Part shown: positions 8,772-18,499 of the stretch, in pieces
Numbering within the stretch: the first letter of the stretch is position 1
How the letters are laid out: each line of letters opens with the position of its first letter
Assembly: GCA_020201275.1 (NCBI GenBank)
Contig: JAIVHB010000007.1
Span: 1-34,029 of the forward strand
Origin: Rhodothermaceae bacterium
GTDB taxonomy: Bacteria > Bacteroidota > Rhodothermia > Balneolales > Cyclonatronaceae
Reading direction: 5' to 3'
Length of the DNA: 34,029 bases
Translations under genes and position numbers: made by a program
The notes under the pieces: generated by a model
What the model was told of the DNA's origin: nothing
The model's database searches: none
What the model saw: the letters and a program-made list of their open reading frames with translations, nothing else

Positions 8772-11294
8772 TCAGCGCGATGTCGTGAGCGTGGCGGCTC
8801 CGGCAAGGGCATAGGCCAGTGCCCCGGTTAGCAGAACGGTGCTGTACCCCCACTCGAGCGCCAGCCAGACCGCAAGTACCGTACTCACTACCGAGAAACA
8901 TCCGTTGATACCCCAGGCCCAGGGAACCTGCACAGAATCGGAACCCGACAGCCGCCGTATTCCCCCGGGAAACGGCACGCCCATCAGGAATCCGACAGGC
9001 GCTATGATCAGTACAGCGGCTGCAACCCTGACAGCCCCCGGCAAAGATATGCTCATACCGATAATGAAGGGCATTATAAACTGCAGCAGCCCCACCAACA
9101 CGGCCAGAACAATGAGCAAACCTTCAAGCCCGCGCCGGCGCCGGGTGATGTGCCTGCTGTAGTAACTCCCGGTACCGGAACTGATGAGCAGAATACCCAG
9201 CACCGCCGCAGTGGCGTATACGGGCTGACCAAAAAAGTGGATGAACTGCTGTATCAGGTTTATCTCCACAAACATAAATCCGGTGCCAATGCCCCCGAAA
9301 TAGATGAGGGTCCAGCTCTTTTTGCTGCCCCGCCAGCCCAGCCGGAACAGGGGCAGGATGATGAACAAAACCGCCGCGATAAAGATCTGTACTGCTGTGA
9401 GTAAAAGCACCAGGTAACCCAGCTCTATGAAAGGTAACGTTTGCCGGCCGTACCGGGAAAGCAGATCGCCTGTATTTTCGACTTTCAGGAACTGTGAGAA
9501 AAATGGCCGGTTATCGGTTGCCGGATCGATCCTGAACAGGTACTCATCGTAGAAGTCTGACCGGCCGCCCTGAACAATCGCATCCAGATAGCCGAAAAAT
9601 GAACGGTCAATTATGTTGTACCGTTGCCTCTCGCCATCGTTATCACCATCGCCGTAGCCATTGTCATTTCTTTCGCCATTACCGATGCGATCGTCATTGC
9701 CATTTCTATCGCTATTACCATCACCATCACTGATGCCATAGCCCTTATCCTTACCCTTACCCTTACCATCGCCGGGGCCTATGCCGGGCAGAAGAGCGGG
9801 ATCGAACTGTTTCTGTTCACAGAACGCACGTATGCGGGCTGTACTTTCATCGGTCAGCGGAGCGCGCGACAGGATAAAGGTAATCGTAGACCAGCTGCGG
9901 ATGGCCGCTATATGCGCTTCAGTATTCGAAATGCCGTTGCGCTCGGCCGTTTCGGCAAGTGTTGCAAGTATTCTCAGTGTGTTGCGCGGAGGCTGATCCA
10001 TCCAGGATGTGACCGCTATTACGCCGTCGTCAAGCAGCAGGTCCCACATCTGCCCGAAAGCCTCAAGGGTAAGGTCGTACTGCTCCTGCAGGGCATACAG
10101 ACCTGATGTGCCACCAAATGCATCCAGCGTGGGGAGAATGATGTGGGAGTAACCGCCCTCCGACCGGTTCAGCCACGCCCGGTTGCTCTGGTGTACAAGG
10201 TGTACATTTGTATGGTTGAGAATGCCTGCCCCATAGAAATCTTCGGATATCCGGCTGGCAAGGTCGGTAAGCCCCGGGTTGGCTTCAACCGCGGTTACAC
10301 GGTTCGCATTGTTGGCAACGGCATGAAATGCATGCCTGCCGGTACCTGCACTGGTTATGAGTACATTCCCGGCAGGCCTCACCAGGTAAGGCAGCTGCTT
10401 GGTGGTATGGGAGAATATATCGCGGGCAATTCCGGCGGGATCCTTTACCGGTCCCGACCAGTTTCCGTTCACAAACACCATGGGCTCAACGGGAATCGTG
10501 CCGGTGTAGTTCAGGCTCACTCCCGGTGCGTAACGGCTGGCATCGGTCTTAACGGCTGTGATAACCCCGTGCGGACCCGATTCGCGGATAAGCACTTCAG
10601 CACCGGGCAGGTTCATGGTTCCGCTCAGACCTTTGTACTGCGAAATGGTTATGTCGGGCGGGTTGAATAGTCCGGCACCGGCCGTGAGAAGTGCAAGCAG
10701 GGCCATGGGTGCCAGCCTTTTCCGGTTCCTGACCGAAGCGCTGATGTATGCGGCAGCCAGGGGCAGCAGGGCAAAAAAGGAGGTGAGCTGTTCAGGAAAC
10801 AGAAACCACATCGCAAGAACACCGGCCAGGCCACCAACGCCCGATCCCGCCATATTGAAAAAATAGATCCGGCCGATGTCGGCGGCATAGCGTGTCAGGA
10901 TCAGGCCGATAGCAAGAGCTCCCGTCAGAAAGGGGAGGGTATAAATCAGATAGACCAGAACAAGGCTCACGATCTCGCTGTTGTCGATGAACAGCAGCCA
11001 GGTGTCGAATCCTCCCACCACGTTTTCGACCAGGTAAACCGATGATGCCATGGCCAGGGAGGTGAGCAGCATCAGAAAGGGGATGAGGAAACCCGAGGCC
11101 GTGAGGAAATTTTTCCGGAAAAGAGCGAGCAGGGTTCCGCTGGCACCAAACCCCAACATGGCCACCGACAGCACCATATAGGCGAAATGGTGCCAGTGGG
11201 CAACAGAAAGAATCTGAATGAGGACGAGCTGCCAGGCTATAATCGCTGCTGAAAGAAGCCCAATCGCTATCCGGATTCTGTGCATCGCATTCAC
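8772..11294 (-). CDS. Spermidine-synthase-like integral membrane protein
   Basis: This 840-residue protein has about six or seven transmembrane helices (residues 1-210), a soluble Rossmann/SAM-binding region like polyamine aminopropyltransferases (about 220-600; NVLITSAGTGRHAFHAVANNANRVTAVEANPGL resembles the nucleotide-binding loop and acidic strand end) and a second membrane half (about 610-840). In the SpeE-like fold the aminopropyl-donor pocket normally has GGGDG; here it reads SAGTGRH, so real spermidine synthase activity is doubtful. Residues about 506-556 are a Gly/Asp/Asn/Lys-rich linker encoded by a degenerate short repeat (9630-9777). The start is GTG 11294, whose GTGA overlaps the stop of the pcm gene by four bases, or ATG 11285. 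Tight coupling to the exported isoaspartyl methyltransferase suggests a common envelope role, which is inference. Confidence 0.75.
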   Translation of the reverse strand: MNAMHRIRIAIGLLSAAIIAWQLVLIQILSVAHWHHFAYMVLSVAMLGFGASGTLLALFRKNFLTASGFLIPFLMLLTSLAMASSVYLVENVVGGFDTWLLFIDNSEIVSLVLVYLIYTLPFLTGALAIGLILTRYAADIGRIYFFNMAGSGVGGLAGVLAMWFLFPEQLTSFFALLPLAAAYISASVRNRKRLAPMALLALLTAGAGLFNPPDITISQYKGLSGTMNLPGAEVLIRESGPHGVITAVKTDASRYAPGVSLNYTGTIPVEPMVFVNGNWSGPVKDPAGIARDIFSHTTKQLPYLVRPAGNVLITSAGTGRHAFHAVANNANRVTAVEANPGLTDLASRISEDFYGAGILNHTNVHLVHQSNRAWLNRSEGGYSHIILPTLDAFGGTSGLYALQEQYDLTLEAFGQMWDLLLDDGVIAVTSWMDQPPRNTLRILATLAETAERNGISNTEAHIAAIRSWSTITFILSRAPLTDESTARIRAFCEQKQFDPALLPGIGPGDGKGKGKDKGYGISDGDGNSDRNGNDDRIGNGERNDNGYGDGDNDGERQRYNIIDRSFFGYLDAIVQGGRSDFYDEYLFRIDPATDNRPFFSQFLKVENTGDLLSRYGRQTLPFIELGYLVLLLTAVQIFIAAVLFIILPLFRLGWRGSKKSWTLIYFGGIGTGFMFVEINLIQQFIHFFGQPVYATAAVLGILLISSGTGSYYSRHITRRRRGLEGLLIVLAVLVGLLQFIMPFIIGMSISLPGAVRVAAAVLIIAPVGFLMGVPFPGGIRRLSGSDSVQVPWAWGINGCFSVVSTVLAVWLALEWGYSTVLLTGALAYALAGAATLTTSR
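9630..9777 (-). repeat. Degenerate hexanucleotide repeat encoding a G/D/N/K-rich linker
   Basis: On the coding (minus) strand the stretch is made of variants of GGTAAG, GGTGAT and GGCAAT. The purest part is a run of GGTAAG units near 9748-9770. It inserts about 50 residues, rich in G-D, G-N and G-K pairs, into the soluble domain of the spermidine-synthase-like protein. The plus strand shows the complementary CCATCG/ATTACC pattern. Such tracts can change length by slippage in steps of two residues. Confidence 0.75.
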
Positions 11295-17614: not shown

Positions 17615-18001
17615 CGGTTATTGGATTATTAGAAACATTGAATACGTTCAAGATTACGTAATTATACTGATCCCATGATGCGGAAAGTGACCTATTTTAA
17701 AAAAGTTATAACGTAAAAATTAGTAGGTAAATAAGAACTACACCGTTGAAATCACATACTTTAGGACATCATCTATTTTTTGAATTGTTAAGTTTTTACT
17801 TGACTTGCAGGAATGAATAATTTAACATAAAAAGGAATCTGATTATCACATCTGTTCTTGTGAATGTTACTCAGGTCGAATTGCGTCACTTTATGTACAG
17901 AGCATGCTGAGTCGGGGAATGCGAGGTATATATGGTCAATATGATAATTGAAAACGAATGTAAGTTAACTGTAACCCTAAGGACTGTAAGGGAATAAATA
18001 A
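17615..18001. other. AT-rich intergenic leader upstream of the AP2 gene
   Basis: This 387-base stretch has no convincing gene and is clearly more AT-rich than its neighbours. Two palindromes sit side by side near its left end: TTGAA-TACG-TTCAA (17638-17651) and ATTACGTAAT (17653-17662). There is an E. coli-like TTGACT near 17801 with a TTTAAC about 15 bases on, but no clean TAnnTTTG. The stretch may hold the promoter and operator of the AP2 gene, or mark inserted DNA. Confidence 0.4.
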
Positions 18002-18499
18002 GTGGCAAGAACTAAAGATCCAGCGATGAAGGGCATAAGCCGTATCGATTCGAAAGGAACGCACGGATGGTATGTCCGCATATATAAGAACGGAAAAACA
18101 TACTCCAAGCTGTATTCCGACAGTAAATACAATGGCAAAGAGAGAGCCCTTAAGTTTGCCCAGAAAGCCAGAAAGATGGCTCTCGAAACCATGAAAAACA
18201 TACCGGATAAACCGGTAAGGCGTCTGGTAACCAGCGATAAACGTAACAAATCGGGTATTATCGGGGTGAGTAAAACAACAAAAACCAACCCAAATGGTAC
18301 CCGAAGCGATTACTTCCAGGTTACCTGGTCGCCCAAGCCTGGAAAAATCAAAAACAGGCAGTGGAGTGTGCGCAAGTATGGTGCAGATCAGGCTTTTAAA
18401 CTGGCCAAGGAGTTCCGCGATAAGGTTATGACCGATATCTATGGTGAACGCTATATCCAGTTGAAAGAGACTGATCAGACGGAACAGAGCGTAGCCTGA
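18002..18499 (+). CDS. Bacterial protein with two AP2-like DNA-binding domains
   Basis: This 165-residue basic protein appears to hold two AP2/ERF-type three-strand-plus-helix domains. The first is about residues 9-60 (MKGISRIDSKGTHGWYVRIYKNGKTYSKLYSDSKY followed by an ALKFAQKARK helix). The second is about 83-145 (KSGIIGVSKTT, DYFQVTWSPKPGK, QWSVRKYGADQAFKLAKEFRDKV). In plants AP2 domains bind DNA; bacterial copies are usually fused to HNH endonucleases or integrases, but this one has no room for a nuclease domain. The start must be GTG 18002, because an in-frame TAA sits directly before it; GTAAGGG upstream is a weak ribosome site. A DNA-binding role is inferred from the fold. It stands alone between a lipoprotein gene and ppc. 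Confidence 0.75.
   Translation: MARTKDPAMKGISRIDSKGTHGWYVRIYKNGKTYSKLYSDSKYNGKERALKFAQKARKMALETMKNIPDKPVRRLVTSDKRNKSGIIGVSKTTKTNPNGTRSDYFQVTWSPKPGKIKNRQWSVRKYGADQAFKLAKEFRDKVMTDIYGERYIQLKETDQTEQSVA

Follow-up and report, generated by a model that had tools for sequence, protein, structure and literature searches.

A stand-alone protein of two predicted AP2 domains in a Rhodothermaceae bacterium: a vertically inherited, putative chromosomal regulator

The chromosome of this Rhodothermaceae bacterium encodes, within the 34,029-bp stretch of DNA that was analysed (the window), a small basic protein that is modelled as two AP2-fold domains with little else, and whose gene is conserved, under purifying selection and vertically inherited. 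AP2 is a DNA-reading module best known from the regulators of plants and malaria parasites, and by analogy with the Plasmodium falciparum ApiAP2 protein PfSIP2 we give a probability of roughly 55% to the window protein being a sequence-specific chromosomal regulator, a monomer that would recognise a bipartite site with one domain on each half-site. The features of the locus are listed in Table 1.

Table 1. Features of the tandem-AP2 locus (positions in the window; E, strand and H, helix of the AlphaFold model, in residues).
Feature	Position	Strand	Description
AT-rich upstream region, presumed promoter	17615..18001	+	387 bp; 68% AT
Tandem-AP2 gene	18002..18499	+	ORF; 165 aa, GTG start, pI 10.2
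AP2-like domain 1 (three strands and a helix)	18035..18193	+	E4-9, E12-21, E24-31, H38-56
Basic linker between the domains	18194..18265	+	pLDDT 59-64 in the model; net charge +4
AP2-like domain 2 (three strands and a helix)	18266..18442	+	E81-87, E93-104, E107-114, H120-139
C-terminal helix/tail, variable between relatives	18446..18493	+	H141-156; length differs among relatives

The open reading frame, of 165 codons with a GTG start, is a real, translated and constrained gene, because synonymous changes are in clear excess over nonsynonymous ones (dN 0.027 and dS 0.60 against the same genus). The resulting dN/dS ratio of 0.045 stands beside values of 0.055 for the nearby PEP carboxylase gene and 0.033 for the Rrf2 gene. 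The GTG start is plausible, since the N-terminal basic stretch gained with it (VARTKDPAM) has its counterpart in the same genus and in family f5, where a K/R-rich 'xDPxM' stretch likewise follows the GTG. The gene is preceded by a DUF2459 gene and followed, in convergent orientation, by PEP carboxylase; farther away in the window lie genes for an Rrf2 regulator, an M3 peptidase, an AbgT transporter, an arginase-family protein, SecA and YidC, and the locus is ordinary chromosome. Neither Rfam families nor tRNA genes were found in the window, and no PADLOC defence system was assigned to the window protein. The closest named relative of the genome is Balneolaceae bacterium DLM2.Bin41. The window also holds an ORF of 840 aa (8772-11294, minus strand) with 80% identity in the same genus and no Pfam family at E 1e-5.

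The AlphaFold model of the window protein, based on an alignment of 29 rows, has a pLDDT of 85 and is composed of two beta-beta-beta-alpha units (domain 1 modelled alone, pLDDT 87). Both domains are predicted to adopt the AP2 fold, in which an antiparallel sheet of three strands packs against a helix, and their adjacent placement in the model corresponds to the tandem arrangement of PfSIP2. They carry net charges of +11 (domain 1) and +8 (domain 2), and their profiles match each other (hhalign, p 2e-5), which indicates that the two domains are related. A Foldseek search of the whole protein against the PDB returned tandem-AP2 chains of PfSIP2 at ranks 1 and 2 (E 1e-4 and 2e-4, probability 1.00), in a match that spans both domains, followed by mitoribosomal proteins of Toxoplasma. 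The whole-length TM-scores are low (0.24-0.34) and the rmsd values large, so the match does not extend to how the two domains are placed relative to each other. When domain 1 was searched alone, the top entries were mostly AP2-type, with integrase arm-binding domains besides; it reached TM 0.54-0.59 to the entries matched by the whole protein, with weak E-values of 0.3-1, no single one of them being significant. The sole phmmer match of the window protein was the same PfSIP2 chain (6sy0), at a weak E of 0.059. The earlier note's reading of the whole protein as two AP2 domains is borne out, for almost all of its length, by the model, the hhalign comparison and the Foldseek match.

Among Pfam families AP2 (PF00847) is the best for the window protein, with 22.4 bits (E 1.6e-4), yet under the gathering score of 33.3; the best stretch (residues 109-141) lies in domain 2, which also aligns to 6sy0. 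AP2 was reported at E≤1 for 26 of the 29 aligned relatives (best 8e-7), and the cut-off was passed, with 34.9-41.3 bits, by four (L062, L063, L064 and L124) of the ten distant or unusual relatives scanned. Judged by these profiles the family as a whole would belong to AP2, though the window protein itself stays below the cut-off. The profile search that the earlier note had proposed for confirming both domains was accordingly positive for some relatives and sub-threshold for the protein itself; both regions are modelled with the AP2 fold, and the AP2 assignment thus survives the refuting condition that the same note had set. Its statement that there is no HNH or recombinase part agrees with our scans, in which no HNH or other nuclease domain (Pfam, NCBIfam and PADLOC) and no catalytic recombinase domain (Pfam) were found in the 165 residues. 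Matches to the PmbA/TldD, GarL and TRAP-delta profiles were weak or under cut-off and were taken as chance. The window's genome holds one AP2 gene; a further PF00847 match falls in what looks like the gene for the GTPase HflX and was likewise attributed to chance.

The leader upstream of the gene had been described in the earlier note as AT-rich and palindromic. The first part of this description is correct (68% AT vs 48% for the window), but the second had to be rejected, with nine 6-bp palindromes against 7.9 expected (p 0.41) and no inverted repeat with arms of at least 7 against 1.8 in shuffled sequences. The predicted RNA fold has a z-score of +1.1, and therefore no unusual RNA structure is indicated. 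Over its full length the leader is about 80% identical within the genus, and no alignment was obtained beyond it. Two blocks (17645-17674 and 17975-18001) reach 96-97% identity in the same genus, vs about 80% overall, and the former contains a 10-bp palindrome, ATTACGTAAT. In a k-mer enrichment, TACGTA was present upstream of 6 of 16 relatives, several of these six being homologous copies, against a background of mostly coding DNA. No conserved operator was found upstream of the tandem-AP2 genes, whose upstream regions align within the genus only, and autoregulation is therefore without support. The leader is presumed to be, as far as can be told, a normal promoter region.

Relatives of the tandem-AP2 gene were detected by profile search in 43 of the 396 sampled genomes of the phylum, some of them in other families of the class or in groups farther away, and are present in 33 of the 60 sampled genomes of the order. 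Two ancient, paralogous groups can be distinguished, which separate in the tree. Subfamily A, the window type (MKGISRID...), shows approximately 58-96% identity over the aligned core and occurs in families f1, f2, f5 and one f3 genome, with a more divergent version (approximately 48% identity) in two further f3 genomes; the same-genus protein has 96% amino acid identity to that of the window, and the rest of subfamily A approximately 58-78%. Subfamily B (MKNISRIDQPSKN...) has approximately 40% identity to the window protein. Both are found together in six genomes of genus g5, of the same family, and in three f3 genomes, and the split would fit a duplication that predates the order. The tree comprises 75 relatives, with quick-mode SH-aLRT support, an arbitrary root and one row (L067) that is a mis-extracted fragment and should be disregarded; the host-family label changes 22 times along it, the minimum being 16 and the mean of shuffled labels 52.5. 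The gene is old, chromosomal and vertically inherited in the Balneolota and their relatives.

The count of paralogues and neighbours that the earlier note had called for gives, beside these numbers, a picture of housekeeping neighbourhoods that are kept within families and differ between them. The neighbours are a DEAD-box helicase and glutamate dehydrogenase in g5, and a class II tRNA synthetase and a pseudouridine synthase in f5; for subfamily B they are gamma-glutamyltranspeptidase and nitroreductase in f3, and a UmuC-type polymerase in g5. In f23/f39 (L133-L138) the gene comes directly after a moxR ATPase gene and, at four of the six loci, before a DUF58 gene; there it sits within a MoxR-DUF58-type cluster. 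No consistent target genes were seen among the neighbours, and the tandem-AP2 gene behaves as an independent single-gene unit rather than as part of one fixed operon.

Several relatives combine AP2-like domains differently. At L129 (7090-8034, minus strand) a protein of 315 aa has an AP2-like N-terminus followed by an HNH nuclease C-terminus (Pfam HNH, 2e-9), in the same order as the window; PADLOC matches it weakly to a type IV restriction enzyme. In two f23 genera, which belong to the same phylum (L116, 7582-8235, and L118, 7240-7920, both on the minus strand) an N-terminal AP2-like domain is fused to a cytidine deaminase (dCMP_cyt_deam_1, 7e-19 and 6.5e-12, respectively). The gene directly after this fusion encodes thymidine kinase, and the fusion protein might be an enzyme with control over the pyrimidine-salvage operon to which its gene belongs. 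A protein of 687 aa at L122 (6591-8651, minus strand), matched by the tandem-AP2 profile at several places and assigned to no Pfam family, is possibly a multi-repeat expansion. The joining of one AP2-like domain to HNH or cytidine deaminase is consistent with a nucleic-acid-targeting module.

Among known systems, PfSIP2 is the closest in arrangement. Like the window protein it has two AP2-fold domains side by side, joined by a short linker, and domain 2 of both proteins has a similar '(W/F)S..K.G...A...A..F' ending. It differs in being a large eukaryotic protein with further parts and only about 18% identity, and its structure (6sy0) is that of a tandem AP2 bound to a bipartite DNA site. PfSIP2 depends on its two adjacent AP2 domains together and on each of the two 6-bp half-sites (PMC2829057). 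The plant AP2/ERF factors of the AP2 subfamily, such as AINTEGUMENTA, are also tandem AP2 proteins, and AINTEGUMENTA-type factors are cited as needing both domains for a 16-bp site (work cited in PMC2829057); plant AP2 structures gave no sequence-level match to the window protein in the searches made. Stand-alone proteins of 147-175 aa, homologous by profile to the window family and over the Pfam AP2 cut-off, are named 'AP2 domain-containing protein' in RefSeq on plasmids of Agrobacterium/Allorhizobium and Desulfocapsa, and a relative on a Methylobacter plasmid is named 'hypothetical protein'. They differ from the window protein in being plasmid-borne in other phyla, with about 34% identity, and their records state no function. 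The earlier note's description of an uncharacterised kind of protein applies to function, but stand-alone bacterial AP2 proteins as such had already been named.

For the window protein we infer DNA binding, bipartite reading and a regulatory role. Its basic charge suggests nucleic-acid binding, and as a stand-alone DNA-binding protein, with its two AP2 domains joined by the short basic linker, it would lay the three-stranded sheet of each domain into the DNA major groove to read about 5-6 bp. Because PfSIP2 needs both domains and both half-sites, the two domains of the monomer would by analogy recognise a bipartite site of about 12-16 bp. Since no other domain is present, the most likely role is that of a chromosomal transcription regulator of its host, acting as a repressor or a site-specific architectural factor. 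Of the readings offered in the earlier note, that of a chromosomal DNA-binding regulator is the favoured one.

It is unlikely, but deserves consideration, that the tandem AP2 instead binds structured RNA, such as rRNA or a ribosome-assembly intermediate. Four mitoribosomal proteins of Toxoplasma are AP2 proteins, and AP2 proteins of this ribosome bind RNA and have no role in transcription (PMC11652630); chains of the Toxoplasma mitoribosome are among the best structural matches of the window protein, which is itself very basic. The likeness is one of fold only, to proteins that bind rRNA in a eukaryotic organelle ribosome. The tRNA synthetase and pseudouridine synthase next to the gene in f5 and the helicase in g5 would suit an RNA-related function, but elsewhere the neighbours are unrelated to it (PEP carboxylase, MoxR-DUF58, the UmuC-like polymerase, gamma-glutamyltranspeptidase), absence from many genomes of the same order would be odd for a part of the ribosome, and the HNH fusion points to DNA. 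An abundant, weakly specific nucleoid-associated protein that shapes the chromosome is quite unlikely. Small size, high basicity, strong conservation, the lack of a sensor domain and the single independent gene would all be expected of it; patchy distribution, the presence of HU-family proteins in the genome and a structural template that binds specifically would not. Codon adaptation is unremarkable as well (0.741, with 0.70-0.81 for ribosomal proteins and 0.65-0.78 for other genes of the window) and does not point to high expression, although this test has low power.

The suggestion of a domesticated piece of a mobile element, raised in the earlier note, is contradicted as far as a recent remnant is concerned, because dN/dS is near 0.045, the tree agrees with host taxonomy, the neighbours are housekeeping genes and no viral relatives were confirmed. 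Neither patchy non-vertical spread nor mobile neighbours, which would mark a mobile element, were observed. Among 2.9 million viral contigs no relative could be confirmed; the sole phage match, partial and weak, is to a phiPMW protein that is 'hypothetical' in one record and an HNH endonuclease in the other. It is, more generally, improbable that the protein is a leftover or domesticated DNA-binding portion of a homing endonuclease or integrase. HNH enzymes and integrase arm-binding domains have the AP2 fold too, one distant relative (L129) has the architecture of the homing-type AP2-HNH endonucleases of phages and bacteria, and there is the phage match; on the other side stand the same vertical tree, constraint, syntenic neighbourhoods and absence of confirmed viral relatives, together with the lack of a partner nuclease or recombinase domain and the single AP2 gene in the genome. 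The AP2-HNH endonucleases share an AP2-like DNA-binding domain with the window protein, which lacks their nuclease part and is chromosomal and vertically inherited. Arm-binding domains of tyrosine integrases (PDB 3jtz and 3rmp), with three-stranded sheet and helix, are among the fold matches of domain 1, but these matches are weak only and the catalytic domain of the integrases is absent from the window protein. Given the common fold, a very ancient common origin with, or domestication from, AP2-bearing enzymes may lie further back.

The window protein has a known fold, by model, and falls within a loosely annotated bacterial kind already present in RefSeq, the window family being an uncharacterised variant of it; no functional description of this family was found in the literature searched. 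AP2 is among the rarest of the transcription-factor families counted in prokaryotes, with 77 members in one survey (PMC7017128), and the window protein would be overlooked by family counts that apply Pfam's curated cut-off. We tentatively consider it possible that a vertically inherited family of tandem-AP2-only regulators is carried by the Balneolota, by their relatives at class level and by some other groups of the phylum. Through descent or convergence it would be a bacterial counterpart of the plant and apicomplexan AP2 factors, and its domain would also have been recruited to pyrimidine salvage in the AP2-cytidine deaminase fusion. If this is true, bacteria came to use AP2 domains as chromosomal regulators independently of mobile endonucleases, and such a family would be relevant to the question of whether an origin from homing endonucleases was necessary for AP2 transcription factors. 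A bacterial tandem-AP2 family that is conserved and vertically inherited would be a testable counterpart of the plant and apicomplexan regulators, and the window protein is small enough for direct structure solution and assay.
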